From the NCBI RefSeq assembly GCF_027594425.1, contig NZ_CP115159.1, positions 1,539,001 to 1,603,000 on the forward strand: 64,000 nt of DNA, written 5' to 3'. Position numbers and translations under genes: made by a program. The notes beneath the pieces are model-generated. The model was not told the DNA's origin. It searched no databases and saw only the letters and a program-made list of their open reading frames with translations. This DNA is from Zunongwangia sp. HGR-M22 (lineage in GTDB: Bacteria; Bacteroidota; Bacteroidia; Flavobacteriales; Flavobacteriaceae). Shown here piece after piece: positions 48,412-62,704 of this stretch. Within the stretch, counting starts at the first letter, position 1; the number at the start of each line of letters is the position of its first letter.

Positions 48412-49317
48412 TTAAATCCACTCTGCTTCAATACCTAATTTTTCAAAATCTTCAACAATGTGGTCTTTGGCGTAACATAAGGTTACTTTTTTTAAGTTGG
48501 GAAAGTGTTTGGCATCGGTTATACTTTCAATGTCCCAATAGTCTATATCACCGCCAGAAAACGGAATTAAATTCATATAAATATCGTTACCGCCATCTTG
48601 GTAAATCTCAGTAAGCTTTGGCGCTAAACGTTTAGGAACCGGAAAATCTTTAAAATATTGAGTAACTTCTTTAATAGGAAAGTGGCCCTCTTCATCTAAA
48701 TCAATTTCTCTTTTTGTATACCATTTCCCAAATTCGTGTACATCAAATTTAGGAGTCAATAAACCTTGAGTATACATTAACTCTTCAATCACCGAGAGTT
48801 TAAACCCAAAATCGGTAAATGTGATGAGTTCTTCATCAGGTTTGTTAATTGCATATTTATCTTTTGGTATACCTTCAGCTCGATCGTAAGGCTTGTAAGT
48901 ACTAAGTTCTATAGCCTTTACCTTATCTTCTCGTACATCAAACCAAGCACTAATGGTATTTAGAACTAAAGCGCCAGAGGTATCGTCTTTAAAAAGTTTT
49001 ACGTGTTTTTCTTCGTACTTATGATAATAACCTATAATGTCTTCTTGGTTAAAAAGAAAGGTGCCCGAGAATGTTTGGGACGGACTAAATTTATACACTT
49101 CTTGCTCTAATTCAAGACTTAGTGTTTCTATGTTTTTACCATCTTTACTAAAGGCGATAATACCTAAATCATTCCACGTAAAAAGCGTATTGTTTTTGGT
49201 TTTAAGTGTACTGTAATTGTTACCAATAATGGCTTGTAAATTTTCTATGGAAATAGGAAATTCAACAGAAATAGTGTTAATTTTAAACGAATCTGGATTT
49301 AATTCTAAATGAAGCAT
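48412..49317 (-). CDS. Protein of unknown function (DUF6892/DUF7738-like)
   Basis: 301 residues, soluble. The first half is a beta-rich module (LNPDSFKINTISVEFPISIENLQAIIGNNY, then YNDLGI-like FTWNDLGIIAFSK), resembling a domain I remember as DUF7738; the C-terminal half ends FPNLKKVTLCYAKDHIVEDFEKLGIEAEWI, resembling DUF6892. These names are from memory and not checked. Such proteins often occur beside SUKH and polymorphic-toxin immunity genes. It follows the SUKH gene by 21 bp on the minus strand and faces the vWA/PurA-like cluster. Confidence 0.7.
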   Translation of the reverse strand: MLHLELNPDSFKINTISVEFPISIENLQAIIGNNYSTLKTKNNTLFTWNDLGIIAFSKDGKNIETLSLELEQEVYKFSPSQTFSGTFLFNQEDIIGYYHKYEEKHVKLFKDDTSGALVLNTISAWFDVREDKVKAIELSTYKPYDRAEGIPKDKYAINKPDEELITFTDFGFKLSVIEELMYTQGLLTPKFDVHEFGKWYTKREIDLDEEGHFPIKEVTQYFKDFPVPKRLAPKLTEIYQDGGNDIYMNLIPFSGGDIDYWDIESITDAKHFPNLKKVTLCYAKDHIVEDFEKLGIEAEWI

Positions 49318-49338: not shown

Positions 49339-49779
49339 TTATAAAATATTTATCGTTTTCAGAAACAGATCAAAAGATTCTGAAATTTTAGTAATATCAC
49401 CACCATCGTGATAATAGATCCATATCGAAAAATTACTTTCTGGATCTAAGTACAGGTAATCTCCATTTTCGTGACCAATCACAAAACCTTTGGCTACACG
49501 CTTTAATTCAACACAACCAAAAGCTGAATCTATATAAAGTTCGTCTAAATTCTCTCCTTCGATATGGGTATAAAGCTTTAAGCATTCGTAATTCGCGGCT
49601 TCACCAACACCGTTCATCGTCCACCGTTTTAATAAATCTTCTTCGCCCATCATATTCCAAGTACGTTTATCATAACGACCGCTAATTTTTATTTTAGTAC
49701 CCTTAGGGTTTTCTTTAAGAAATTTGAGATACCTGCTTGGTAATTCTTGCTGAAAGGTTTCGCTAAATTCTAATTTCAT
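49339..49779 (-). CDS. SMI1/KNR4 (SUKH)-type protein
   Basis: 146 residues in a SUKH pattern: an N-terminal LPSRYLKFLKENPKG helix, FGCVELKRVAKGFVIGHENGDYLYLDPESNFSIWIYYHDGGDITKISESFDLFLKTI at the C-terminus. SUKH proteins are commonly immunity proteins against contact-delivered toxins, or regulators. No toxin gene is adjacent. It heads a two-gene minus-strand unit divergent from the island. Confidence 0.78.
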   Translation of the reverse strand: MKLEFSETFQQELPSRYLKFLKENPKGTKIKISGRYDKRTWNMMGEEDLLKRWTMNGVGEAANYECLKLYTHIEGENLDELYIDSAFGCVELKRVAKGFVIGHENGDYLYLDPESNFSIWIYYHDGGDITKISESFDLFLKTINIL

Positions 49780-49992: not shown

Positions 49993-50346
49993 ATGGCAGA
50001 TACTAATAATCCACAAGCAGCTTTTTTAGATTCATTAAAGCGCAATAACGATAAAATAAGAGACGACCGTGCAAATGCTATTGCAGAAGATGCGCAGTTA
50101 ATGTACAAACGAGAAACCGAAGATCTAGCCTTGTCTTTAAAGCGCTTAAAACGCGAACAAGAAAATATGCTAGATATGAGTCCTACAGATGCGAATAGTT
50201 TGGTGTTGGCTTCAGATTTTGATGCTAAAGATTATGTAGCCAAAGACTTAGAAATGGCGGTTAAAATAAGAAACTTAGAAATTAAATTAGAATTGGCCAA
50301 AAAACGCTATGCGTATTTATTTGGAGCTAAAATAGAAGAATTATAA
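49993..50346 (+). CDS. Coiled-coil protein of unknown function
   Basis: 117 residues, almost all helical and highly charged: SLKRNNDKIRDDRANAIAEDAQLMYKRETEDL and a second heptad-like stretch NLEIKLELAKKRYAYLFGA. No known domain. It is the first gene of the plus-strand island, only 2 bp before the vWA gene, so it probably forms a partner or scaffold for it. Confidence 0.75.
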   Translation: MADTNNPQAAFLDSLKRNNDKIRDDRANAIAEDAQLMYKRETEDLALSLKRLKREQENMLDMSPTDANSLVLASDFDAKDYVAKDLEMAVKIRNLEIKLELAKKRYAYLFGAKIEEL

Positions 50347-50348
50347 TT

Positions 50349-51215
50349 ATGGGAGGAGGAAGATTTAGTAACGAAGCTTACGAACAGTTAAGAAATTCTA
50401 AAGGATATCAAAATAAATCTCGCGAAGAGATATTTACTGCCAGAAATATAGATCCAGAAATGGATCCGTCAAAAGCCTTAGTGCGTGAATCTAGAGATTC
50501 TGAAGAGCACCCAGAATCGGTTTCGATTATTGTAGGTCTAGATGTTACCGGAAGTATGGGATTTGTTCCCGAATTGATTGTTAAAGAGGCGCTGCCAGAT
50601 CTTATAGGTTCGCTTATGGAAGCCGGGATCGAGCATCCACAAGTCTTATTTATGGGACTGGGAGATTTTGTTTACGATAGTGCTCCTTTGCAAGTAGGTC
50701 AATTTGAGTCTTCTGCCGAATTGTTAGACCGCTGGTTAACCCGTGTGTATTTAGAAGGCGGCGGTGGCGGTAACAATCAAGAAGGGTATAATTTGGCGCA
50801 TTTATTTGCGGCACGCCATACCGCTATAGATTGTTGGGAAAAAAGAAAACAAAAAGGATTTTTATTTACCATTGGTGATGAGCCTGTTTTTAAAGAGCTT
50901 CCAGCAGAAATTATTCGTAAATATACGTGTACCAATGAAGCTTCAACCATAAGTACTGAAGCTATTATTAAAGAAGCGCAAGAAAAATATAACGTATATC
51001 ACATTCATTTAGAACATAATGATTGGTCTAAAAAAGAAACCCGAAAAGGAAATTGGAAAGAATTGCTAGGTGAAAATTTTATAGAATTATCCAATTATAA
51101 AAAAGTAGCCAAGCGTATTGCTGAAGTAGTGATTCAAAATCATCAACCTGCTGCATCTTCTGTAGGAAACAACACTTCTTCTAATTCGAATATTGATGTA
51201 GAAAATATGCTATAA
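50349..51215 (+). CDS. von Willebrand A-type protein
   Basis: 288 residues. The metal-ion-dependent adhesion site is Asp65-x-Thr67-x-Ser69 in IIVGLDVTGSMG, with Thr in place of the usual first Ser, plus GGGGGNNQEGYNLAHLFAARHT and FTIGDEP as the other two MIDAS loops. An N-terminal GGGRFSNEAYEQL segment and a Ser/Asn-rich C-terminus flank the domain. No membrane segment or signal, so it acts in the cytoplasm. The PurA-like gene begins at the next base, which suggests the two proteins act together. No MoxR ATPase is present, unlike most bacterial vWA operons. Confidence 0.82.
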   Translation: MGGGRFSNEAYEQLRNSKGYQNKSREEIFTARNIDPEMDPSKALVRESRDSEEHPESVSIIVGLDVTGSMGFVPELIVKEALPDLIGSLMEAGIEHPQVLFMGLGDFVYDSAPLQVGQFESSAELLDRWLTRVYLEGGGGGNNQEGYNLAHLFAARHTAIDCWEKRKQKGFLFTIGDEPVFKELPAEIIRKYTCTNEASTISTEAIIKEAQEKYNVYHIHLEHNDWSKKETRKGNWKELLGENFIELSNYKKVAKRIAEVVIQNHQPAASSVGNNTSSNSNIDVENML

Positions 51216-52352
51216 ATGCCGAAGTGTAGTATTGTAATAGATTTAGGTTTTGGCGATGCCGGAAAAGGAATAACGACCGATTTTCTGGCATCGCAACAAC
51301 CTGAAGAAAGTCTGGTGGTTCGGTTTTCTGGTGGGCATCAGGTAGGGCATACGGTGGCAACAGAAAATCTAGAACATACTTTTAGTAATTTTGGTTCAGG
51401 TACGTTTCAGGGTGTTCCTACCTATTATAGCGAGCATACCACACTTTTTCCGCCTGCCATTTTACAGGAAGGAAACTATTTAAAAGCCTACCATCCTAAG
51501 TTGTATTTACATCCGTTGGCCATGGTAACCACTGTGTATGATATTGCATATAACCGGGCTTTAGAAAAACAACAAGGCCATGGTTCTTGTGGTTTAGGTT
51601 TTGGTGCTACCATAGCTCGCCATCGAGAAGAGGTGTTTTTTTATGCGAACGATTTACAATTTAAATGGGTTATAGAACAGCGATTACAAAGTATTCAAAA
51701 ATATTATCAAAACAAAATAGCGCAGCAATCTAAAGCCGTTCAAGAATATTATACAAATGAATTAAAGCAATACGAGGAAGCTTTTTTTGTAGAGACTTGT
51801 CTTACAATGCATTCTTTTTATACAATTGCAAAATTGGCAGACTTAGCTTCTTCATTTCAGCATTTTATTTTTGAAGGCAGTCAGGGTATTTTGCTAGATA
51901 CCCAACACGGTTTTTATCCGCATACCACGTGGAGTTACACTTCTTCTAAAAATGCCATTCAGCTTATTGCAAATGAATTGAATGATGCCCAAATCAATAT
52001 ATATTATGTAACGCGCTGTTACCAAACTCGCCACGGCAACGGCCCGATGAGCAATACTCCAGAAGTTACCTTAATTAATAATGAAAATGAAGCTAATGTA
52101 ACCAACGAGTTTCAAGGGGAATTTCGAACAAAAACGCTTGATCCCAATTTACTTAATTATGCCTTAAGCTGCGATCAAATTCATCATCAAAATTTAGCTA
52201 TTACCAAAAATTTAATGATTACCTGTTTAGATCAGTTACCTGATTTTTCGGTAGAAAATTTACTTCAAAAAATTCCGATTTCATTTTCAAAAATATATGC
52301 TAGTTATGGTCCTAGTAGACAAACCATTAAACTCATAAAATCTACCAATTAA
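51216..52352 (+). CDS. Diverged adenylosuccinate synthetase paralogue (PurA-like)
   Basis: 378 residues, shorter than housekeeping PurA (about 430). Family features: P-loop-like IDLGFGDAGKG with the catalytic Asp14, GGHQVGHTV with catalytic His45, FEGSQGILLDTQHGFYPHTT, and the C-terminal YGPSRQTIKLI. Differences: the IMP-contacting Asn of GGHNAGH is Gln42; the TTGRGIGP loop is SCGLGFGA; the GRxRRTGW aspartate-binding loop is reduced to GEFRTKTLD; the guanine-recognising TKxD motif reads TKNLM. It thus probably acts on another nucleotide or uses another NTP. Its place directly after the vWA gene and away from purine genes argues against a housekeeping role. Confidence 0.82.
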   Translation: MPKCSIVIDLGFGDAGKGITTDFLASQQPEESLVVRFSGGHQVGHTVATENLEHTFSNFGSGTFQGVPTYYSEHTTLFPPAILQEGNYLKAYHPKLYLHPLAMVTTVYDIAYNRALEKQQGHGSCGLGFGATIARHREEVFFYANDLQFKWVIEQRLQSIQKYYQNKIAQQSKAVQEYYTNELKQYEEAFFVETCLTMHSFYTIAKLADLASSFQHFIFEGSQGILLDTQHGFYPHTTWSYTSSKNAIQLIANELNDAQINIYYVTRCYQTRHGNGPMSNTPEVTLINNENEANVTNEFQGEFRTKTLDPNLLNYALSCDQIHHQNLAITKNLMITCLDQLPDFSVENLLQKIPISFSKIYASYGPSRQTIKLIKSTN

Positions 52353-52411
52353 ACTGTTTTCCAAGCTAAAACATTTTTTAATTAGAATGTTTATTTTCCA
52401 AAATCACCTTT

Positions 52412-52422
52412 TTCAGGGATAA
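52412..52422 (+). promoter_or_regulatory. Shared upstream element TTCAGGGATAA, copy 2
   Basis: Identical to the element at 49939-49949; ends 45 bp before the start of the second SUKH gene. Confidence 0.38.
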
Positions 52423-52467
52423 ATTGTAAGCTATTCTACCATAATTTCGTTTTGTAAAAATGAAGTT

Positions 52468-53505
52468 ATGATGAAAAGTATAATTGCGTATAAAGAAGAT
52501 GTCAATCAGAAGAAGTGGAACGATTTTCAGTTTGAACCTATTCAGATAGAAACACTTCCAACTTTAGAAGATCCTGAAGATTTTAGAAATAGTTTCACCT
52601 TTAGAGATTCGCTACTAGAAGCTTTCGAAGAAATTTCAGGTAAAAATGTTTTAAAACTGTTATTTATAACTCCAGATTTTAATTTAAATTCAGCATTTTA
52701 CGGCATTGCCTACCTAGAAACGAAAGAGATATTTACCGCTGAAATTCAGCAAACTGAAATTTTCACTCAGTGGTACGATGCTGTTCTTGATGAAGATGAT
52801 GATAAAACAGATGCCAAGTTATTTCATTTTTCCAAAAGCAGTTATAGTTACAGCCCAATAAATGCTAAAAAACACGAACAGCTTTTTGAGCATACAGGAG
52901 AATTTATTGTACAAAACATTCCCAATCATTTTATTGCAGAACAATTAGCCAAAGAGAAAGCAGATTTTATAAATCCGTTTATTCATTTAGAAGTCGATTA
53001 TAACTTTGAAACTATAAAAGCAAATTTTGAAACACTGGTAGCTAAAAATTCATGGAAGATTATTCCTCCAACCGATAATCAACAAATTTATAATGAATTT
53101 GAAGCGGAAGCCGGTTTTGTATTTCCACAGCTGCTCAAAGATTTTTTAAGCCTTCATAATGGAGTAGAAAAAACCCGTTTTTTAAATGCTGAATCTATTC
53201 TACAAGAATGGAGAGAATGGAAAAACATATATCAAGATTGGACGCAAGAAGAATTGCTAGATACCTATAGTACTAATGAAGGGAAAACTTTGTTGATGTA
53301 CACCACGCCGTATTGGATTCCCTTTTTCGATTTATACAACGGTAATTTTATAGCCTTAGATTTTGCGCCTACAGAAAAGGGAACGCCCGGACAAGTGATA
53401 CGTTTTGGTGCCGATCAAGAAATTGGTTATCAGGAAGCAGAAAGTTTAAACGCCTTTTTAGAAGAACTATTAACTTCTGAAGAGTTTGATGAAGACGAGT
53501 ATTAA
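52468..53505 (+). CDS. SMI1/KNR4 (SUKH)-domain protein with N-terminal extension
   Basis: 345 residues. The C-terminal half (about 190-340) has the SUKH pattern: EFEAEAGFVFPQLLKDFLSLHNGVEKTRFLNAESILQEW, then YWIPFFDLYNGNFIALDFAPTEKGTPGQVIRFG and a final helix. The N-terminal 180 residues are soluble, Phe- and acid-rich, and not recognised. It follows the PurA-like gene by 115 bp and carries its own candidate promoter element. The SUKH family is known for immunity and regulatory roles; a partner toxin is not visible in the window. Confidence 0.8.
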   Translation: MMKSIIAYKEDVNQKKWNDFQFEPIQIETLPTLEDPEDFRNSFTFRDSLLEAFEEISGKNVLKLLFITPDFNLNSAFYGIAYLETKEIFTAEIQQTEIFTQWYDAVLDEDDDKTDAKLFHFSKSSYSYSPINAKKHEQLFEHTGEFIVQNIPNHFIAEQLAKEKADFINPFIHLEVDYNFETIKANFETLVAKNSWKIIPPTDNQQIYNEFEAEAGFVFPQLLKDFLSLHNGVEKTRFLNAESILQEWREWKNIYQDWTQEELLDTYSTNEGKTLLMYTTPYWIPFFDLYNGNFIALDFAPTEKGTPGQVIRFGADQEIGYQEAESLNAFLEELLTSEEFDEDEY

Positions 53506-53542
53506 ACTGTTTAAAGATAAGGCATCATAAAAACAAAATTTT

Positions 53543-53554
53543 AGTTGCGCAACT
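53543..53554. promoter_or_regulatory. 12-bp palindrome upstream of the 845-residue protein gene
   Basis: AGTTGCGCAACT is a perfect palindrome 34 bp before the GTG start. A regulator site is possible; no second copy was noticed. Confidence 0.35.
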
Positions 53555-53588
53555 TTACCAATGCGGACTTCAATAAAAAACTGCAACC

Positions 53589-56126
53589 GTGGAAAATAAT
53601 TTGAATAGCGAAATTCCAAGAGAGACATTTAAAAATGTAATAATCCCCAAAATAAACACTTTTGAGTTAGATACTGCCGCTCTTCAAGCTTTAGTAGAGG
53701 TGTTAGAATTATTGCAAGCCCAAGATTCTCGTGTTTATATTGAAACAAAAAATACAGTAGAGTTACAGCCTATCGCTCCTGTATTTTCAAAAGTTTTAGC
53801 CCAACAAATATATTATCATCCTGAGGTTTACGCAGATGAAGATCGAGGATTTGAATGGATAGCGACTTGGATCCCTTTGCTAAAAAAAGGTTTTTTTCCA
53901 GATGAAGAGAGTGCAGAAAAACTGCTAGAATTTCTTTATTTCGGGTTAGTTTTTTTACAGTCAGAAAAAATTTCAACAGAAAGAAGGAAAAATGTATTTG
54001 AAGTCTTATACCTTTTAGTGCATGGTAAATCTGAAGCGTCGTTACCGGTAGCTCGTTTTTTAATGGAACGTGCTTTTGATATTCGAGATTATCAGAGTTC
54101 TTCGTTTATTGTTCAGCAGTGTTTAAATTATAAATTACTGGCCAAAAGCTATTTTGCAAAAGATAATAATGAAATTTTACAGGAATATCCATTTCTGATT
54201 ACCGATGATTTTGTAAATCATTTTTATCAAAATAGTTTTTACTTGTTGGCAAAAAGCTTTCACGAAGTTTTACCGGTAAGTGAAGAAAATACACCTGGCG
54301 CTTATGAGTTGCTGAAACCTTGGCTAACAGAAGATTTAGCTGATTTTTATGCCGCGAATGAAGATTTTGCAAAAAGCGCACATCAAGTCTTGCTAGAGCG
54401 TTTGTTTTTTGTAGAAGATGAAAGTTTTGATTACCTCAATCTTCGCACTGCAGAAGGATATTACCCAATAATTGCAGCTTTCAACACTAAAGAATGGAAT
54501 GAAAGAGATGTACTTTTATTTAGCTTGAAGGATAAAAATATTCCTTTAAAACAAACTGAACCCGGTTTTTACAAACTACAAAATTGGCTGTTGGCAAATA
54601 ACGGTACTAATTTTAACCGCCCTGTTGTAGACAATTATGCAAAAGCAGTTTTTGCTGTAAAAAGTGCTCGAGAATTACCGGTAAAATTAATTTTACTTTG
54701 GTTCGAGATGAGCAAATGCTATCACAAAAACTTAGCTAGAAAAGTCTATTTTAATCAGGTATTTGCATGTTTACTTTCAGATTGGAAAGCTAAAAAATTG
54801 CCGATCATGAGTCATGAAGGTGAAGCTTTTCAAGTCACCGGAATGTATGTGCTCGACGGTTTATTAGAAAATATTTACTTATTAAAAGATTGGCTTCCGA
54901 ATTACCAACGTTTAGGTTTTGCAGATCCGTTAAATCAGTTTTTACTCCTTTGTTTTTACGATGTTCGTACAGAATTAAAAGAAAAGATTAACGAAGAAAG
55001 TAATGCGGTTTTGTATAACTACTTGCTGACATTAGCTAAAGATGCCAGAGAAACAGAACCTTATTTACGAGAAACCGGTGTAGAGATTTGTGTAGAAATT
55101 TTAGCGGAAGTTTACAAAGACACTGAAAATTTTAAGCAAGTAAATGAAATTGCATCCTTAAAAAATATAAATCCTAGCCTAACAGAATACTGCGAAGAGT
55201 TTTCAAAATCTCATTATGTAAATACAGAAATTCCGTTAACCGCTAACCTCATACAAAGTTGGTATTTATTTTTAAACGATTATTACTACAGCTTAGGCAA
55301 AGAAGCCTTATGGGTAGAAGAAGTATTAAAAACTCAGGGAGCTCGTTTAGCTAAGTATTTTAATGAGAATGAAGAAGGAAGTTTTCCTAGTGAGATACTC
55401 TTTAGGTTGAATATGTTTTTAAAAATGTGTAGCAAACATTCAGAATCGTATCCTAAATTAAATGAAATAGGTTTCGCTATTGCTCAGCATATCTACCATT
55501 TGTTAAAAGATTTAAAACCAGAAAAATTGTCTAAACAAGTAGTAGAGGTTTTATACAACTACATTATGGGGCACGAGATTAATGCCTACCATAACATGCA
55601 ATTAGAAAGTGTGATTCTTCCTTTTTACAAATATTATTTTCAAGAAGAAGAAAAAAAAGAAGATGCCGCAGAATTACCAATAGAAACTGCAATAGAAGAA
55701 CAAACCACTTCACCAACTGCAGAGTCTATAGTACTTTTATCAGAAACGCAATTCAGTAAAGAGGTTTTAGAACATGTAATTTCAGGATTAGAAAACTATA
55801 AAACCAACGGAATAGATAGTAGTGTTTATAAAACATTTATAGAACAACACGAGACTGAAATTAAAGCTTTGCTAGAAGAAAATATGGAGCTTAAAATGAA
55901 AATGTATCAGGTTTTATATTTATTGATTATCGATTTAGAAGCCGCACCCGACACCAAATATGAAGCTTACGGAGACTTGAGTAGAAACCTTTTTGTGACG
56001 CTGGTAAAAGGAAGCACTATGGCTTTAAGCTACGCACAAGGATTAGAAATGATGGCTTCATCTGGTGCCTATCCCGAAAAATTAACCAAAGCTTTATTAC
56101 AAGTAGTGACCAATTTAAAAGCCTAA
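53589..56126 (+). CDS. Large helical protein of unknown function in the vWA/PurA-like island
   Basis: 845 residues, starting with GTG (MENNLNSEIP); no ATG is in frame for over 150 codons, so the GTG is accepted. Almost wholly helical, rich in Leu, Phe, Tyr and Glu, with repeat-like segments but no motif I recognise. A low-complexity acidic linker at about 685-712 (EEEKKEDAAELPIETAIEEQTT) separates a C-terminal helical domain of about 130 residues. No signal peptide or membrane helix. It is separated by 3 bp from the DUF1266-like gene, so they form one unit. Confidence 0.8.
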   Translation: MENNLNSEIPRETFKNVIIPKINTFELDTAALQALVEVLELLQAQDSRVYIETKNTVELQPIAPVFSKVLAQQIYYHPEVYADEDRGFEWIATWIPLLKKGFFPDEESAEKLLEFLYFGLVFLQSEKISTERRKNVFEVLYLLVHGKSEASLPVARFLMERAFDIRDYQSSSFIVQQCLNYKLLAKSYFAKDNNEILQEYPFLITDDFVNHFYQNSFYLLAKSFHEVLPVSEENTPGAYELLKPWLTEDLADFYAANEDFAKSAHQVLLERLFFVEDESFDYLNLRTAEGYYPIIAAFNTKEWNERDVLLFSLKDKNIPLKQTEPGFYKLQNWLLANNGTNFNRPVVDNYAKAVFAVKSARELPVKLILLWFEMSKCYHKNLARKVYFNQVFACLLSDWKAKKLPIMSHEGEAFQVTGMYVLDGLLENIYLLKDWLPNYQRLGFADPLNQFLLLCFYDVRTELKEKINEESNAVLYNYLLTLAKDARETEPYLRETGVEICVEILAEVYKDTENFKQVNEIASLKNINPSLTEYCEEFSKSHYVNTEIPLTANLIQSWYLFLNDYYYSLGKEALWVEEVLKTQGARLAKYFNENEEGSFPSEILFRLNMFLKMCSKHSESYPKLNEIGFAIAQHIYHLLKDLKPEKLSKQVVEVLYNYIMGHEINAYHNMQLESVILPFYKYYFQEEEKKEDAAELPIETAIEEQTTSPTAESIVLLSETQFSKEVLEHVISGLENYKTNGIDSSVYKTFIEQHETEIKALLEENMELKMKMYQVLYLLIIDLEAAPDTKYEAYGDLSRNLFVTLVKGSTMALSYAQGLEMMASSGAYPEKLTKALLQVVTNLKA

Positions 56127-56129
56127 TTA

Positions 56130-56786
56130 ATGACTACAGAAGAAATTACACCTCAAATACAAAAGCAATTAAACTTTTCGGCTTTGCTTTTAAAAAAACA
56201 CGCTCACGAAGTAGATCTTGAAAGTTGGTTTGGATTTGATGTACATAACGAGTGGCATGTTAAAGCAGCAAAACGCTTATTGAAGTACTACGGAATACAT
56301 TCAGGCTTAGATTTACGCGGTAAGTTGTTTGAATATGAAAACGGAATTATAGCTTCCACTACTTTTGAAAAATTAGCAGCCAGTTTACGCCTAGATACCA
56401 CCAGCAGTTTCGAAGCCAAATATAAATCTTTAGATAATGTTATTCAAGAGCACCAATATACGCTTGCCTGGAAATATAGATTTAGCCTTAAAGATCAGAA
56501 GCTTAAAGGCTATGAAATGGCAAAATATGTATTTCTGATGCGTTTGGGCGGCATCTTAAATTACATGGAGTTAGAAGAAATTACCTTACGCTTAACGGAA
56601 GCAGAAGCCTTACTTAAAAATACATTTACTAGCTGGGGAGAGTTTCATCGAAACGTATGTATAGGAGATGAGTTTATTAACGGAAGCGGAGAACAAGATA
56701 GAAGTTCATTCCCGGGAATACTAACCCTTTGGGAATGTTACCAGCGGATGCACATCACTTATTCAACTTGGTTTAAAGAATGGTAA
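56130..56786 (+). CDS. DUF1266-like protein
   Basis: 218 residues. The C-terminal half reads LKGYEMAKYVFLMRLGGILNYMELEEITLRLTEAEALLKNTFTSWGEFHRNVCIGDEF, which fits the DUF1266 pattern (W-x-x-R near a helix, then a conserved FxSWxE and G-x-x-F). The family is of unknown function but occurs among predicted immunity or conflict-related proteins. It sits between the 845-residue protein and the TPR protein with 3-bp and about 2-bp junctions. Confidence 0.75.
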   Translation: MTTEEITPQIQKQLNFSALLLKKHAHEVDLESWFGFDVHNEWHVKAAKRLLKYYGIHSGLDLRGKLFEYENGIIASTTFEKLAASLRLDTTSSFEAKYKSLDNVIQEHQYTLAWKYRFSLKDQKLKGYEMAKYVFLMRLGGILNYMELEEITLRLTEAEALLKNTFTSWGEFHRNVCIGDEFINGSGEQDRSSFPGILTLWECYQRMHITYSTWFKEW

Positions 56787-56788
56787 TT

Positions 56789-59020
56789 ATGGAATTGACA
56801 AGAGAACAAGTAATCACACATATAGAGCAGGCTGAAGCAGCTTACGCTAACCAACTTAACAGACAATTAGAATCGCATATTGTTGTTATTCAAGAAAATT
56901 TTGATGCTTTAGAAGCTCAAGACCAAGCCATATGTATTCGATATTATCGATTATATATGCGTTTTTTAACGCTTTTTGATGAGGTGAAGATAACAACAAT
57001 GCAAACCTATTTTGAAGCTTTAGAAAATGAAGGTGTATTAGAAGCATCAGATTACGAACTCATCTGTAGTTTTTACAAAATATGTCCGCAAGCAATTTAT
57101 GAAAAAGCGTTAATGGCTTATTCTTATAACGAAACCTTGCATCTGCATTATGCTTTAAAACTGAAAGAAGAACGACGTTTTACTGAAGCTATTGAAGTAC
57201 TAGAGTATATACTAGAATGTTATCCGGGAAGTACAGATTGTCGCTTTTTATTATGGGAAATTAAACAAGAATATTTAGATGAATTATGTAATTCTGAAAA
57301 AGAAATTGAAGCAACACAGCTTCTTGATTTAGCTTCTGCAACCCACAATAAATCGGTTTTAAAAGGCTTAGAACTAGATCCTCGATTAACACCAGCCGAA
57401 AAATACCACGTTCAAATTCAATTAGCTGTTTGGCAAAATAGATCGGTAGAAAATCGTAACCAATGGAGAGCCGAATGGAAACATGTAGAATTAGCAGACC
57501 AAACTCGTGATTTATTGGCAGATTATGCCAAAGCATTTATGATGTATGATATGGTAGATGAGGTGCTAAAATTTCCTGAGGCACCTAATTTTCCTGCAGA
57601 AAACTATAGCGATTTTGCAGCTTATAGAACTTACATGCTAGCGCTTACTAATGCAGGTTGGCAACGAGCTCAACATCAATATTTATTAATAGGAAAGTCG
57701 TTTTATCATTATTCAAAAGACTTGAAGAAAATGGCATATTGCCTACAGCAAGGCTTAGCGCTTCATCCTAAAAATCCGTTATTATTAGAATTGAAAGGGA
57801 AGTTTTTCTTCTTTCAAGCAGATTATCAGCAGGCATCAGAAGCGTTTAACGAAGCATTTCAACAAGGCCTTTCTGCTACCGATTATTTACAAACTTCAAT
57901 GGATGTATATGATCGGGTAAACAATTATAAGGGAATTTTACAAACGGTGAATCAGTTTCATCAACGGCATTTCCCTAATGCAAAAAGTACATGTTTTAGA
58001 GGAATAGCTTTAGTTAAATTAGGCTTTTTAGATCATGCTTTTGAAGTTTTTACAGAAGGAATAGAAAATTATCCACAATCGGCATTTCACGCTTGGATGT
58101 ATTATTGGCGAGCTGTAATTCATAAGCATTATAAAAATTATGATTTGATGCTGAGAGATATTCAGAATGAAGTAAAATTTTACCCGGAAGGGAGTAGCGA
58201 CTATTGCAACTCGATGAACTTGTGTATGGTTTCGTTTTTTGAAACGGGAGATTACAAAAAATCGCATCAATACGGTGTATATTGTTTTGAACAAGGACAG
58301 CTGGATGCAGATCTTCACAATGTATTAAAATGGATTTGCTTTTATAGTTATCTACCAAAACCTGAAGGATTAGAAAAAGCTTCAGAAGCAGATTTAATTG
58401 CTAATCCGAAAACCTTTATTCATTATCGTAATAACGGATTAACCTATTGGATGATAGGAAATTATACAGAAGCTATAGATTCTTTATTAATTGCTGTTGA
58501 AAAAGATGTAGAAAAAGACTTGTATTATCAATTAGCTTACCTTTGTGCGAGAGAAAGTCCGGATAAAGAATCGGCGGTACGCATATATAGAGATTTAGTA
58601 AAAGAAGTTCCGGAAGCTAGAAACTGGGAGATCGATATTTCTTACACCGGTTTATTAGAGCGAACCCAAAATTTTAAAGAAGCAAAAGAGGCATTTCTCA
58701 ATTTTACAGCCTCGTATCCGTATGAAGTATTTTATAATTTTGCGCAACATAAAAGTATGATTATTCAAACCCTTAGAGAATCGGCAAAAGGGGAAATGAA
58801 TATAAAAGATTATACCAGATACAGTGCGGTACTTTTAAGTAAAGAAAATCCACTTGAAATATATTTAGAAGAGCATCAACAAATTGCTGAAGATTTTCAT
58901 AAAGAAGATTTATTTTTATACCATAATTTATTAGCTGGTAGTAAAACAGAAGTAACAGAAGAAAAAACAAAGAAACTAAGAAAAATAAAAGCTGAAATTA
59001 TACAAAACTACTTTGCTTAA
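56789..59020 (+). CDS. TPR-repeat protein
   Basis: 743 residues from the ATG at 56789, which lies 2 bp after the previous stop; an ATG at 56780 overlaps the previous gene by 7 bp and adds only MVI. Tetratricopeptide-like helix pairs occur throughout (for example ALKLKEERRFTEAIEVLEYILECYPGS, LLELKGKFFFFQADYQQASEAFNEAF, GIALVKLGFLDHAFEVFTEGIENYPQS, GNYTEAIDSLLIAVEKD). No signal or enzyme domain. Likely a large interaction scaffold for the island proteins. Confidence 0.82.
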   Translation: MELTREQVITHIEQAEAAYANQLNRQLESHIVVIQENFDALEAQDQAICIRYYRLYMRFLTLFDEVKITTMQTYFEALENEGVLEASDYELICSFYKICPQAIYEKALMAYSYNETLHLHYALKLKEERRFTEAIEVLEYILECYPGSTDCRFLLWEIKQEYLDELCNSEKEIEATQLLDLASATHNKSVLKGLELDPRLTPAEKYHVQIQLAVWQNRSVENRNQWRAEWKHVELADQTRDLLADYAKAFMMYDMVDEVLKFPEAPNFPAENYSDFAAYRTYMLALTNAGWQRAQHQYLLIGKSFYHYSKDLKKMAYCLQQGLALHPKNPLLLELKGKFFFFQADYQQASEAFNEAFQQGLSATDYLQTSMDVYDRVNNYKGILQTVNQFHQRHFPNAKSTCFRGIALVKLGFLDHAFEVFTEGIENYPQSAFHAWMYYWRAVIHKHYKNYDLMLRDIQNEVKFYPEGSSDYCNSMNLCMVSFFETGDYKKSHQYGVYCFEQGQLDADLHNVLKWICFYSYLPKPEGLEKASEADLIANPKTFIHYRNNGLTYWMIGNYTEAIDSLLIAVEKDVEKDLYYQLAYLCARESPDKESAVRIYRDLVKEVPEARNWEIDISYTGLLERTQNFKEAKEAFLNFTASYPYEVFYNFAQHKSMIIQTLRESAKGEMNIKDYTRYSAVLLSKENPLEIYLEEHQQIAEDFHKEDLFLYHNLLAGSKTEVTEEKTKKLRKIKAEIIQNYFA

Positions 59021-59022
59021 CA

Positions 59023-59034
59023 CTTTCGCGAAAG
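59023..59034. repeat. CTTTCGCGAAAG palindrome
   Basis: Perfect 12-bp palindrome in the 25-bp gap between the TPR gene and the sensor kinase. I recall this CTTTCGCGAAAG(CG) motif as recurrent in flavobacterial genomes; within this window only this copy was noticed. Confidence 0.4.
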
Positions 59035-59045
59035 CGAATGAATTC

Positions 59046-61010
59046 ATGAAAATATTAAAAATTTACATTTTAGGTATGCTCTGGCTATTGGCAGGTTATA
59101 CGCCTGTTTATAGCCAGCAGAAGCTTGAAATTACTTCAATAGATTCACTTTCGGCAGTATATCGAAGCAACTTGAACAGCCAGCCTAAAATTGCAAAGCA
59201 AGCAGCTTTAGCTTGGTTAGAGGCGGCAAAAAATTCAAATGATCAATTACAGCAAGCGCAGGCGCATTATGCATTGGCTAATTTAGGGAATAGCGCCGGC
59301 GATTATCAAAGTACGGTTGCCAATATCCAAGAAACTATTAAAATTTTAAAAGCGCTAAATCAAAAAGACGGCTTATCGGCGAGCTATAACTTATTGGCGC
59401 TGGGCTATAAAAATATGGCGGAATATCCAAAAGCAATGGATAATTTTCTGAACTGTTTAAAGTTTGCCGAAAAAGAAAACAACAAAGAGCAACAAGCCAA
59501 TGCTTACCAAAATATTGCCACCTTATATATTCTACAGGAAGATTATAAAAAGGCAGCTGAAAATTTAGACAGAGCAGCAGATCTTTTTCGAGAATTAAAA
59601 GATGATGATGGCGTGCTTACTACTTTATTCAATTTTGCAAATATTCTAAAAGAACAAGGTAAATTTAATGAAGCAAGGAAACACTACCAAACGGTACTAA
59701 AATACAGAAAACGCGAAGGAAATAAATCGGTGATAGCTTATGTGAATATGAATCTTTCACAAATGTTGCTGGAAGAAAAAAAGTATCCTGAGGCACTTAT
59801 CGCTTTAAAGAAAACATTAGGTCTTTTGCAGGCGCTTCAATTTAAATCAGATATCGCGGTTGTTTATAATGATTTAGGACTTTGCGAAAGTAAATTAGGA
59901 AATAGTCAAAAAGCCATATTTTATTTTGAAAAAGCTTTAAAAATAGGAGAGGAGCAAGCACTTTTAAAGTATAATTCAGAAATTTATAGTAACATTTCGC
60001 AGCTATATAACAACCAAAAAAATTATAAAAAAGCGTTAGCATTTTATCAAAAAGCGGTAAAAACAGAAGAACAGCATAATAGCCTGAACAAAGAAAAATA
60101 TGTCGCTAAACTTCAGGAGCGTTACGAAACTCAATTGAAGGAAACCCGCATTAAATTGCTGGAAAAAGATCAAAAATTAAGCGATGCCGAATTGCAAAAG
60201 GCAGCCTTAACTTTAAAACGGCAGCGTGTGGTAAGAAATGCTTTTATAGCCGGTTTTGTATTGGTTTTAATTACATTAATTGTACTGCGCCTATTTTATA
60301 TCCAGCGGCTACGTGTTCAAAAACAATTGAGTTCTCAGAAAGAAGAAAATGCCAGACAGCGCATTAATCAAATGATGCAAGAGCACAAGCTTTCTGTAAT
60401 AAAACGCTATCAGGAAGGGCAAGAAGAAGAGCGTTCTAGATTGGCGCGAGATATTCATGACGGTATTGGTAGCGATCTGGCAGGAATTAAAATTGCCTTT
60501 GAGCATTACTTGGAGGGAGCTGGCTTACAACCTAACGCAAAACGTTTATTAGGAGCGATTAACAATGTGTGTATTGATGTACGTACACTATCTCACCAGT
60601 TACATCCATTACCTTTTTCTAAAATTGGTTTTAGTAGTTTTTTAAATGAATTTATTAATCAGGTAACACAAAAAAATGAATTAAAAATTCAAACTTTTTT
60701 GTTTCCGGAGGAAGAGATAGATGAACTACCGGACGAACTTTTAGCAGATACGTATCGTATTGTGCAAGAGTTAATCAACAATATTTTAAAACACGCCAAA
60801 GCAACACAAGCAGAATTACAGCTTACTAAACACGAAGATCACCTAAATATTGTTATTAACGATAATGGCAAAGGTTTTCAGAAAGCCAAAAAACAAGGAA
60901 TAGGACTTCGCAATATTAAAGAGCGACTGCAAAAAATGCAAGGAACTTTAGATATCGACAGCGGCTCAAAAAACGGTACTTCAATAACAATCGACATCCC
61001 TCTAAACTAA
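59046..61010 (+). CDS. TPR sensor histidine kinase (NarX/DesK-type core)
   Basis: 654 residues from the ATG at 59046, which opens a signal-like helix (MKILKIYILGMLWLLAGYTPVYSQ); an in-frame TTG at 59013 would place extra residues before it. Periplasmic TPR repeats (about 60-365) are followed by a coiled coil, one membrane helix (NAFIAGFVLVLITLIVLRLFYI) and a HisKA_3 kinase with His471 in RLARDIHDGIGSDLAG and a HATPase domain with NDNGKGF and GIGLRNIKERL. This is a common Bacteroidota form of sensor kinase. The next gene is its response regulator. Co-directed with the island and probably part of the same operon. Confidence 0.9.
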   Translation: MKILKIYILGMLWLLAGYTPVYSQQKLEITSIDSLSAVYRSNLNSQPKIAKQAALAWLEAAKNSNDQLQQAQAHYALANLGNSAGDYQSTVANIQETIKILKALNQKDGLSASYNLLALGYKNMAEYPKAMDNFLNCLKFAEKENNKEQQANAYQNIATLYILQEDYKKAAENLDRAADLFRELKDDDGVLTTLFNFANILKEQGKFNEARKHYQTVLKYRKREGNKSVIAYVNMNLSQMLLEEKKYPEALIALKKTLGLLQALQFKSDIAVVYNDLGLCESKLGNSQKAIFYFEKALKIGEEQALLKYNSEIYSNISQLYNNQKNYKKALAFYQKAVKTEEQHNSLNKEKYVAKLQERYETQLKETRIKLLEKDQKLSDAELQKAALTLKRQRVVRNAFIAGFVLVLITLIVLRLFYIQRLRVQKQLSSQKEENARQRINQMMQEHKLSVIKRYQEGQEEERSRLARDIHDGIGSDLAGIKIAFEHYLEGAGLQPNAKRLLGAINNVCIDVRTLSHQLHPLPFSKIGFSSFLNEFINQVTQKNELKIQTFLFPEEEIDELPDELLADTYRIVQELINNILKHAKATQAELQLTKHEDHLNIVINDNGKGFQKAKKQGIGLRNIKERLQKMQGTLDIDSGSKNGTSITIDIPLN

Positions 61011-61015
61011 ATATT

Positions 61016-61654
61016 TTGAAAAGAATAAACATCATAATAGCAGACGATCATTTAATGTTTTTAGAAGGCATCAATACCATTTTACAGGATATGCCCGAAA
61101 TTGATGAAATACATTTAGCTACTGAAGGAAAGCAGGTATTACGCTTGCTAAATCAATTTGAAATCGATTTGATTATTAGCGATATTAGTATGCCAAAGAT
61201 GGATGGGATCGAGTTGCTAAAAGAAATTAAAAAGAAGCACGCAGAGGTGAAAATTATTATGCTGAGTATGCTCGACAATCACCGTACCGTACACAAAGTA
61301 ATTCAAAAAGGTGCCAATGGTTTTGTGCCCAAATTTACCAGCAAAGAAGAGTTGCAAAAAGCGGTGAGAACCGTTTTAGAAGGCGAACAATACTTTTCAG
61401 AAGTGATTAAACAACGTTATATTGAAAGTGTTTTTGAACGTAAGAAGTACAAAAACATCGAGCTTTCTCCCAGAGAAAAAGAGGTGTTGAAGCTTTTAGG
61501 AGAAGAATTTACTTCTAAAGAAATTTCTGAAAAACTGTTTATTTCGGTGAATACCGTAGAAACACATCGTAAAAATATTTTGCTAAAAACAGGTTCTAAA
61601 ACTACTACTGGAGCCGTGAAATTTGCGATTGAATCGGGATTATTTGATGACTAA
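61016..61654 (+). CDS. NarL/LuxR-family response regulator
   Basis: 212 residues, starting with TTG at 61016 (MKRINIIIADDH); no ATG occurs before residue 14, which would cut the first strand of the receiver, so TTG is accepted. Receiver with Asp56 in LIISDISMPKMDG and Lys in FVPKFTS, then a LuxR-type HTH at about 147-205 (LSPREKEVLKLLGEEFTSKEISEKLFISVNTVETHRKNIL). Cognate partner of the kinase encoded 5 bp upstream. Targets cannot be told from sequence. Confidence 0.93.
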   Translation: MKRINIIIADDHLMFLEGINTILQDMPEIDEIHLATEGKQVLRLLNQFEIDLIISDISMPKMDGIELLKEIKKKHAEVKIIMLSMLDNHRTVHKVIQKGANGFVPKFTSKEELQKAVRTVLEGEQYFSEVIKQRYIESVFERKKYKNIELSPREKEVLKLLGEEFTSKEISEKLFISVNTVETHRKNILLKTGSKTTTGAVKFAIESGLFDD

Positions 61655-61714: not shown

Positions 61715-62704
61715 TTAAAAGCCGGTAGAAAACGGAAGTTTTTCTTTTGTATTCTCCCAATATTCTTCAAAAAAGTCTACATTAGCAATGGGTTCAACTT
61801 CGGTACGGATAATCTTTTGGGTTTCAAGATTAAAATATTGAAAAATAACCGCGGTTATTGGCGCCATTGAACGTTTAATAATAGTATCGTCAGTTTCAGA
61901 TTTATCACTTAAAAATTGAATCCAGACGGCATCTTCAAAAGTATCTGCATTTACAAAAACCTTACTTGCCGTATGCATTTGGTATTGATGATCGAGAGGT
62001 TTTAAATAGTTGTTTGTTTCATCTTCAATAAATTTTTCAATTAATTTATAATCTTCTGCTTTAGTGTTGAGTGTGAAATAATTCAGTTTCCAATTTTCTT
62101 TTTCTTCTGAAGTGGTTTTGGCTTGCAAAATAGCCGATGAATACTGAGGTGTTTGTATATTGAAGTTAAAATAGTTAGCACATAATAAATTACTTTTATT
62201 AGTGTTCATGGTAGTTATTAGTGTAGAAAGTGTTTCTTTAAGCTGATCAGGTTTTGGAATGCTTTCAAATTGAATTTGCGCATCATAATAGTCAAAATCT
62301 ATAATTATACCGTTATTTTTTAAAGGAACAATCATGCTTTGTTTAATACGGTAATCTTTTTCAAATTCTTCATATTGTTCTTGAATAGAAAGTTCCTGAA
62401 AACTTCCCTGTGATAAAGAATCTTGCTCTTTCATCACTTTAGCGTCAAAATGTAAACCGAACCGAATCTCTGGAATTTGTTCATCAAAAATTTCAACAGT
62501 AAACATATTGGGATTCATATTGCCTTCATTCCAAAACCGGTTAAGGTTGCTAAAACCCAATTTTTGATCGGTATGTTTTTCAAGATATTGAGTTAATGTT
62601 TTTGCGGCTTTTTCTTTACTCATTCCCCCAAATAATCTGGCACACGAGCTAAAACAAGCTATAACAATAGGTATTAGAATTACGATATATACTATATTTT
62701 TCAT
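61715..62704 (-). CDS. Lipoprotein of unknown function
   Basis: 329 residues with a lipoprotein-type signal (IVYIVILIPIVIACFSSCARLFGG; Cys21 is the likely lipidated residue). The rest is a mostly hydrophilic alpha/beta protein with strands such as MFTVEIFDEQIPEIRFGLHFDAK and AVIFQYFNLETQKIIRTEVEPIANVDF. No domain was recognised. It converges on the LuxR-type regulator and shares its terminator. A strong palindrome lies just upstream of its start. Confidence 0.72.
   Translation of the reverse strand: MKNIVYIVILIPIVIACFSSCARLFGGMSKEKAAKTLTQYLEKHTDQKLGFSNLNRFWNEGNMNPNMFTVEIFDEQIPEIRFGLHFDAKVMKEQDSLSQGSFQELSIQEQYEEFEKDYRIKQSMIVPLKNNGIIIDFDYYDAQIQFESIPKPDQLKETLSTLITTMNTNKSNLLCANYFNFNIQTPQYSSAILQAKTTSEEKENWKLNYFTLNTKAEDYKLIEKFIEDETNNYLKPLDHQYQMHTASKVFVNADTFEDAVWIQFLSDKSETDDTIIKRSMAPITAVIFQYFNLETQKIIRTEVEPIANVDFFEEYWENTKEKLPFSTGF

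Follow-up and report, generated by a model that had tools for sequence, protein, structure and literature searches.

PurA and phage PurZ are the closest described enzymes to the PurA-like protein considered here. With PurA, the PurA-like enzyme has its superfamily in common and keeps residues D13, K16, H41, Q224 and T239, but its IMP-site residues are replaced, an internal C-terminal stretch is missing, and it is linked to a vWA protein. Phage PurZ is alike in superfamily, phage occurrence and length; however, in the one sequence compared, phiVC8 PurZ, the catalytic Asp is replaced by Ser and N38, T129 and V273 are retained, and the PurA-like enzyme shows the reverse pattern. At the level of gene systems, the ARG-centred anti-viral-ADPr systems, as set out in the available part of PMC9503650, are matched by gene types in many Chryseobacterium and Flavobacterium loci, which hold a Nudix regulator, an ADP-ribosylglycohydrolase, a phosphatase, macro and NADAR proteins and a vWA protein. 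MoxR-vWA/VMAP (PMC7159879) and Ter systems also combine a vWA protein with partner genes and have TPR scaffolds, but the cluster proteins scanned gave no match to MoxR, VMAP or TerB/TerC/TerD (ten proteins by Pfam and PADLOC, nine of them by NCBIfam), as a preliminary description of the locus had said. The terms 'PurA' and 'adenylosuccin' are absent from the text of PMC7159879 and from the available part of PMC9503650. No description of the module or of the cluster was found in the open-access literature, in keeping with the initial impression of an undescribed-looking cluster. The module is common to bacteria, plasmids and phages and apparently undescribed.

The cluster itself is confirmed, and all seven plus-strand ORFs lie where they had been placed. 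The first three encode CC, a 117-aa coiled-coil protein (49993..50346; an ORF, with the coiled coil read from its translation), a 288-aa vWA-fold protein (50349..51215; phrog_2971, E 2.3e-45, AlphaFold model and Foldseek) and the 378-aa PurA-like enzyme (51216..52352; PF00709, 8.9e-37, residue tables and tree), with junctions of 2 nt (CC/vWA) and 0 nt (vWA/PurA-like). A SUKH protein with an extra N-terminal region (52468..53505; SMI1_KNR4, 5.8e-15) follows after 115 nt and an 845-aa alpha-solenoid protein (53589..56126) after a further 83 nt. The gene for the latter is separated by 3 nt from that of a DUF1266 protein (56130..56786; PF06889, 4.7e-10), which overlaps by 7 nt the gene of a 746-aa TPR protein (56780..59020; TPR_14, 1.6e-10). 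This third block runs on past position 59020 on the same strand: the TPR gene overlaps by 8 nt that of a TPR sensor histidine kinase with HisKA_3 and HATPase_c domains (59013..61010; PF02518, 2.6e-13; PF07730, 8.4e-7), and after 5 nt comes a response regulator (61016..61654), identified from its translation only by a receiver start and a C-terminal HTH. On the minus strand, the divergent left pair, described initially as SUKH/unknown, consists by Pfam of a SUKH protein (49339..49779; SMI1_KNR4, 9.5e-8) and a DUF7738+DUF6892 protein (48412..49317; PF21832, 6.6e-48; PF24880, 1.1e-23). In a PADLOC scan, the only matches were of the SUKH protein to the candidate PDC-M40A (1.4e-16) and of the kinase to a TPR model (2.3e-7).

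To describe the distribution of the vWA and PurA-like genes, we used sets that each hold the best 80 loci by vWA score from longer lists (at least 557, 420 and 238), and distant members are therefore under-sampled. A PurA-like gene accompanied the vWA gene in 80/80 bacterial and 75/80 viral loci of these best-scoring sets. In the second viral set, from which 4 of 80 loci without a called vWA ORF were dropped before counting, the PurA-like gene adjoined the vWA gene in 73/76. All eight exceptions lie no more than 1.4 kb from a contig end. On plasmids, the pair was linked in six of the seven loci read, out of 21 plasmid matches (tblastn and record annotation); the simple ORF caller of the neighbour scan found the vWA gene in 3/7 of the plasmid loci, in 79 loci of the first viral set and in 76 of the second. 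Pairwise identities of the vWA and PurA-like proteins are correlated across 50 loci (r = 0.80, whereas 1000 permutations never exceeded 0.27), a value that includes shared ancestry. CC, vWA and PurA-like genes are also found without the other cluster genes in both bacteria and viruses. Linkage of the vWA/PurA-like pair is shown for the loci examined from bacteria, plasmids and phages. A core module of CC, vWA and PurA-like proteins is well supported. The pair spans Bacteroidota, Proteobacteria, Actinobacteria, plasmids and hundreds of viral sequences, with its function undescribed in the literature searched.

The genome encodes a true PurA elsewhere, apart from the cluster, which scored 576.2 bits compared to 126.6 for the PurA-like protein. 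The latter is below the cut-offs of the NCBIfam PurA equivalogs (83.6 versus 395.55 for TIGR00184, 102.4 versus 402 for NF002223), and a PDB profile search returned bacterial PurA as its best match (2.8e-44), with PurZ at best at 2.3e-12. We compared 50 PurA-like sequences with 16 true PurA sequences of relatives. D13, K16 and H41, which we take to be the catalytic residues of PurA, are kept in 50/50 PurA-like sequences, as are Q224 and T239. Among N38, T129 and R143, presumably the IMP-site residues of PurA, N38 is replaced by Q in 48 sequences (retained in 2/50), T129 by C or V in 49 (retained in 1/50), and R143 is Arg in 0/50. V273 is H and T301 is Q in all 50, and R305 is F or L in 44. True PurA is canonical at all compared sites (16/16). 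Four positions upstream of the R143 column, 47/50 PurA-like sequences have a conserved Arg where PurA has Asp; this shifted Arg could assume phosphate binding in place of R143, and hence the ligand may still carry an IMP-like 5'-phosphate. We considered a non-aspartate nucleophile, based on the lost T301/R303/R305 loop, and dropped it, as phiVC8 PurZ is also without these residues; because that enzyme uses aspartate, changes at T301, R303 and R305 are no argument against aspartate here. In a phylogenetic tree, all 50 PurA-like sequences fall on one side of a branch with support 99/98, where PurZ is one sequence (phiVC8) on a long branch and PurZ0 and archaeal PurA were left out. By the tests applied to these sequences, the PurA-like enzyme fits neither PurA nor PurZ.

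Some phage homologues are labelled '2-aminooxy adenylosuccinate synthetase', a label that implies modified-DNA synthesis, in this case production of 2-aminoadenine, and the PurA-like protein does match phrog_1211 (5.7e-53). However, it scores only 39.2 bits against the PurZ model NF038379 (cut-off 300), the catalytic Asp is present in 50/50 PurA-like sequences in contrast to the Ser of phiVC8 PurZ, and many bacterial chromosomes carry the module. In the available part of PMC12884076, phage PurZ has Ser for this Asp in 147/147 sequences. On the kept Asp and the low NF038379 score we rejected a PurZ/Z-DNA identity of the enzyme, and we regard 2-aminoadenine synthesis as highly improbable.

The vWA protein gave no vWA family match in a Pfam scan and, in a PDB sequence search, a single match at E 0.21. 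Its AlphaFold model (mean pLDDT 88.8) was matched by Foldseek to vWA/I-domain proteins, with a pilus adhesin best (E 2.1e-6) and with integrins and vWF A domains also found, at moderate TM-scores. Alignments show a MIDAS-like D-x-T-G-S motif and a conserved Met-Gly start. The structural matches and the PF00709 match bear out the earlier assignment of a vWA protein and a PurA paralogue to the cluster.

The slot upstream of the vWA gene varies among relatives, which have CC, a J-domain/kinase-like protein or a Met-rich phage protein in this position. By tblastn, a CC homologue is present in 68/80 of the best bacterial and 52/80 of the best viral loci. When seven J-domain/kinase-like slot proteins were scanned with Pfam, a kinase match was above the cut-off in one (6.6e-9) and below it in another (0.0027), DnaJ was below the cut-off in two (0.0014 and 1.7e-4), and four had no match. 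Kinase and DnaJ matches of this sort are consistent with protein modification or chaperone activity in virus–host conflict, with the vWA and J-domain/kinase-like proteins picking clients, perhaps ADP-ribosylated ones, and the PurA-like enzyme modifying the attached nucleotide. Along the same lines, vWA chaperones have been proposed for the ARG-centred systems (PMC9503650, section 3.8 of the available text), and in six viral loci the gene immediately 3' of that for the PurA-like enzyme encodes R2K, a peptide ligase family according to the available part of PMC7824862. We nevertheless find this explanation unlikely, given that CC and Met-rich proteins without kinase or DnaJ domains take the same slot and that more than half of the J-kinase-type proteins scanned had no Pfam match.

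Within 10 kb of the module, the 80 best bacterial loci contain genes for NrtR (39), Tpt1 (34), DraG-type proteins (32), metallophosphatase (32), Sir2 (29), NADAR (28), macro (27), PARG (18) and NAMPT (12), with family identities from Pfam on representatives; many of these loci are from Chryseobacterium, and hence the counts are not independent. NrtR-like genes also lie beside the module in Alphaproteobacteria and a Gammaproteobacterium, and weakly in Actinobacteria. These neighbours make plausible the nucleotide product theme of the preliminary description. An ADP-ribosylglycohydrolase and a Nudix regulator near the vWA gene were taken as the mark of an ARG-centred system; many of the bacterial loci have such genes (DraG-type and NrtR in the counts above), but neither occurs in the window (the whole 64-kb stretch of DNA analyzed) or in 13 window-type loci. 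A search for 13 NAD/ADP-ribose gene families found no member in the window or those 13 loci, most of which have SUKH, alpha-solenoid, DUF1266 and TPR genes instead, and so the NAD/ADP-ribose link comes from relatives only. Viral loci have few of these genes, with at most 4/155 for any family (NAMPT; two scans).

Other neighbours suggest RNA repair, in which the enzyme would act on hypoxanthine in RNA or at RNA ends and the vWA and J-domain proteins would be RNP or chaperone parts. Tpt1, counted above, fits this idea, as do genes that lie close to the module in loci of the first viral set, namely TROVE (8/79), HAD_SAK_2 (8) and R2K ATP-grasp (9), and, in LRRHood, a polynucleotide kinase gene four genes 5' of the vWA gene. 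However, TROVE is seen in just 1/76 loci of the second viral set, Tpt1 is absent from the window and the 13 window-type loci, and RNA repair genes are widespread in large phages (available part of PMC7824862), making this a doubtful explanation.

The best explanation, with a probability of about one in three, is that the PurA-like enzyme is a ligase for an NAD/ADP-ribose-like nucleotide; we infer this substrate from the neighbour genes, which make an NAD/ADP-ribose-type nucleotide the likeliest ligand. The core would be a mobile two-protein machine, vWA plus PurA-like, with an exchangeable third protein. With GTP, the enzyme would activate a purine-type ligand other than free IMP at its 6-oxo group, or at an equivalent oxygen, and would then join the activated ligand to aspartate or another amine. 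Candidate ligands are a deaminated (hypoxanthine) form of NAD or ADP-ribose, or a conjugate. The vWA protein and its CC, J-domain/kinase-like or Met-rich partner may, in a metal-dependent manner, bind, present or sense this ligand or whatever carries it. In many relatives the module would be turned on through an NrtR-like Nudix repressor, for which ADP-ribose is the expected signal; in the window-type locus this control may pass to the histidine kinase with TPRs and the response regulator. The fast-evolving SUKH, alpha-solenoid, DUF1266 and TPR block could be an added output or target-recognition layer. More tentative still is the full picture of an undescribed nucleotide-ligase system that would have been swapped among phages and bacteria from several phyla and would use an adenylosuccinate-synthetase site to rewrite the purine ring of an NAD/ADP-ribose-type molecule, free or attached to a macromolecule, steered by the metal-binding vWA protein and the exchangeable CC, J-kinase or Met-rich adaptor; flavobacteria would have coupled it to a two-component sensor and to a recognition block that evolves fast. 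Physiologically, the module would most likely serve repair, reversal or signalling where phage and host are in conflict over NAD/ADP-ribose. If the NAD/ADP-ribose link holds, this would be a new type of chemistry in the NAD conflict between phage and host. As the active-site swap is fixed, the substrate could be tested directly on a single purified enzyme.

The 845-aa protein is predicted to be nearly all helical (model pLDDT 83.2). Assignment to a known family was rejected: there was no Pfam family match, and the 50 Foldseek matches listed were HEAT/karyopherin-like solenoids and similar proteins, at TM-scores below 0.3. The protein is fast-evolving, with 34–40% identity in 8 of 11 loci where CC is 82–90% identical. 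Among the best 80 bacterial loci, homologues of the SUKH, DUF1266 and TPR proteins are found in 12, 11 and 11, respectively, and the module together with the SUKH/845-aa/DUF1266/TPR block in 11, with gene order and gaps repeated across 11 related loci. The kinase is matched by tblastn in 12/80, a count that takes in weak matches and is limited by the many loci that stop short of the gene; a response regulator homologue adjoins the kinase gene in L023, L024 and L054. Across 397 sampled genomes of the family, the 845-aa gene occurs in 7, the vWA gene in 10 and both in 6 (Fisher p 2.8e-10, uncorrected for kinship and with one weak vWA match, G624, E 1.3e-4, excluded). These parts can nonetheless separate. 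In the 20 kb read from each of two genomes, G699 has the SUKH, 845-aa, DUF1266 and TPR block without the core module, and G002 has the module, SUKH and histidine kinase/response regulator genes without those for the 845-aa, DUF1266 and TPR proteins.

The preliminary interpretation is therefore partly supported. The refuting outcome that it named, rare co-occurrence in random order, did not arise, as gene order is not random in loci where the genes co-occur; but the genes also occur separately (G699, G002), and with the core found alone in bacteria and viruses we rejected the seven-gene cluster as one inseparable system. The window is a flavobacterial version of the module with extra scaffold and sensor genes. 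That interpretation had also proposed a signalling system built around a nucleotide product; in this reading, the module would make a signalling nucleotide which the proteins of the SUKH/845-aa/DUF1266/TPR block detect. Presence of the block with the module in 11/80 best bacterial loci, its fixed order in the 11 measured and the rapid divergence of the 845-aa gene would suit such a scheme; against it stand G699, which has the block but no module, and the 69/80 best bacterial loci that have the module but no 845-aa gene, and we judge it improbable. Homologues of the divergent left genes are found in the best 80 bacterial loci as well, SUKH in 3 and DUF7738+DUF6892 in 10, and in G699 a DUF7738+DUF6892 gene accompanies the accessory block.

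In the window (1,539,001–1,603,000 of a 4.04-Mb, single-contig genome), the ORFs bear out the seven clustered genes at the places assigned in the preliminary description, and Pfam upholds the identities proposed there for the PurA-like, SUKH, DUF1266, TPR and kinase proteins. The vWA protein, the 117-aa coiled-coil protein (CC) and the 845-aa protein have no Pfam family exceeding the cut-off. For the vWA protein (50349–51215), a structure predicted from an alignment of 42 sequences (mean pLDDT 88.8) gave Foldseek matches to a pilus adhesin, integrins and vWF A domains, and hence its assignment is right. Modelling gives the 845-aa protein a largely helical solenoid fold (pLDDT 83.2), whose structural matches are all weak and of low TM. 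The PurA-like enzyme is a paralogue, the true PurA being encoded elsewhere in the host genome (576.2 bits versus 126.6). In PHROGs, the vWA protein matches phrog_2971, of unknown function (2.3e-45), and the PurA-like enzyme matches phrog_1211 (5.7e-53). Met-Gly begins the vWA protein in 148/167 longest-ORF starts (window and relatives), and most remaining ORFs have Met-Gly within the next 60 residues; the N-terminal glycine may have a function.

The vWA family is rare and specific, occurring in 15/395 genomes of the phylum sample versus 0/14 control genomes, and its closest named relatives among the matches listed belong to the Flavobacteriaceae (e.g. Leeuwenhoekiella, Mesonia). In the best 80 of at least 557 bacterial relatives, a PurA-like gene is present at every locus and lies ≤1 kb downstream of vWA in 78. 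Among the 80 best viral relatives (of 420), 75 carry a PurA-like gene, placed ≤1 kb downstream in 64 and farther off or inverted in 11; of the five without it, four have <550 nt of right-hand sequence and one has 1,325 nt. A second viral set, again the best 80 (of 238), yielded vWA ORF calls at 76 loci; the PurA-like gene adjoins vWA at 73 of these, and the other three end within 1,042 nt. Phage records gave 207 vWA and 226–227 PurA-like matches. Of 60 PurA-like matches listed, 54 have E values of 4e-34 or better, from phages of Mycobacterium, Rhizobium and Vibrio plus one gut phage; the other six are at 5e-17 or worse. Among plasmids, six of seven read (from 21 matches) carry the PurA-like gene. 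It is absent from Rhodovulum plasmid pRSMBA, which has vWA, NrtR-like and J-kinase-type (J-domain-like N-terminus plus kinase-like domain) genes; an IS3 transposase gene lies close by, and the vWA protein is annotated there as a TonB-dependent receptor.

No description of the vWA/PurA-like pair was found among the open-access matches listed; a 2016 RNA-repair review and a 2012 paper on NAD-utilizing pathways, both outside that coverage, could mention it. The module (CC, vWA and PurA-like genes) is real and apparently undescribed. In several viral loci (L142, L143, L164, L167, L176, L178 and others), GIY-YIG homing endonuclease genes lie between vWA and the PurA-like gene, which gives the pair the look of a homing target in phages. 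An Allorhizobium plasmid (L207, 10408–16795) carries AAA ATPase, DUF5682 and DUF4132 genes 3′ of the module and a T6SS VgrG gene upstream.

The first gene of the module is exchangeable. CC, located in the slot preceding vWA in the maps shown, was detected by tblastn in 68/80 bacterial and 52/80 viral loci of the best-80 sets. A J-kinase-type protein fills this slot in 8 bacterial and 16 viral loci and, by tblastn, in 7/7 plasmids; in the second viral set, a Met-rich family (that of L030) precedes vWA in 71/76 loci. Seven J-kinase-type proteins were scanned against Pfam. One, LRRHood gp253, has a kinase match above the cut-off (6.6e-9); matches below it were to kinase in one protein (0.0027) and DnaJ in two (0.0014, 1.7e-4), and four had no match.

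There is a good case that the enzyme is a PurA-type ligase with shifted specificity. We aligned 50 PurA-like proteins with 16 true PurA sequences, all of which are canonical at every site considered. D13, K16, H41, Q224 and T239 are retained in all 50 PurA-like proteins, as in PurA, whereas N38 is replaced by Q (48/50), T129 by C or V (49/50), V273 by H (50/50), T301 by Q (50/50) and R305 by F or L (44/50). Neither the R143 nor the R303 column holds Arg in any of the 50; four positions before R143, the Asp of PurA gives way to Arg in 47, and this shifted residue might take over from R143. PurZ of phage phiVC8, a member of the PurA superfamily from the 2-aminoadenine pathway, has Ser at D13 and retains N38, T129 and V273, and the pattern of the module enzyme thus differs from those of both PurA and PurZ. 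Because this PurZ, like the module enzyme, lacks T301, R303 and R305 in this alignment, changes there give no sure indication about aspartate. From the residue pattern we infer a ligand that would be a nucleotide unlike IMP around the phosphate and ribose. The 50 PurA-like sequences form one side of a branch with support of 99/98. In another tree, which also included one adenylosuccinate lyase row, phage and bacterial members are intermixed, a Mycobacterium phage neighbouring Rhodococcus and Tsukamurella plasmids, and a Vibrio phage and a gut phage lying beside Acetobacter and Allorhizobium plasmids, which suggests repeated exchange between phages and bacteria. The label '2-aminooxy adenylosuccinate synthetase', given to some members from phages of Mycobacterium, Rhizobium and Vibrio, is probably wrong for them, as the family retains the catalytic Asp.

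For NAD/ADP-ribose chemistry there is a moderate case, drawn from relatives rather than from the window itself. For the 80 best bacterial loci we tallied raw counts of neighbours ≤10 kb from vWA, with families assigned by Pfam of representatives. The tally, whose counts are not independent because many loci are from Chryseobacterium, gave NrtR-like Nudix regulator (39), Tpt1 (34), ADP-ribosylglycohydrolase (32), metallophosphatase (32), Sir2 (29), NADAR (28), macro (27), DUF4291 (23), 2OG oxygenase (22), PARG (18), a second macro-like family (18; Pfam match of only 0.008), NAMPT (12) and PRPP synthetase (9). An NrtR-like gene adjoins the module in a Hahella MAG, Acetobacter, Allorhizobium, Rhodovulum and Rhizobium; those in Tsukamurella and Rhodococcus are weak matches, under the Pfam cut-off. 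NAD genes are few in either viral set (at most 4/155 loci, for NAMPT), and the first set has TROVE in 8/79, R2K in 9/79 and HAD_SAK_2 in 8/79 loci.

The module together with the SUKH, 845-aa, DUF1266 and TPR block occurs in 11 of the 80 best bacterial loci. Thirteen NAD/ADP-ribose gene families gave zero matches in these eleven loci, the regions of two further genomes (G019, G002) and the 64-kb window. Gaps inside the module and inside the block are near-constant across 11 loci (ten block-bearing loci of the best 80, plus G019). Five loci (L047, L048, L049, L051, L053) have a small gene of 138–139 aa, probably encoding a membrane protein, between the PurA-like and SUKH genes. Across 397 family genomes, the 845-aa gene occurs in 7, vWA in 10 (plus one weak match) and both in 6 (Fisher p 2.8e-10, uncorrected for kinship). 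One genome (G699) has the block and the divergent DUF6892 gene with no module in the 20 kb covered, and another (G002) has the module, SUKH and kinase/regulator genes with no 845-aa, DUF1266 or TPR gene in 20 kb of sequence; the locus is therefore modular, combining a widely shared enzyme module with a faster-evolving block. Identity in eight of the eleven loci is 34–40% for the 845-aa protein, 82–90% for CC and 78–81% for vWA; in the three closest loci, 845-aa identity is 54–85%. A putative lipoprotein gene (61715–62704, minus strand) adjoins the cluster and may belong to the locus. It has a relative at L220 (4166–5146), adjoining the block in G699, and others near the module in Fulvivirga (L054) and Joostella (L058).
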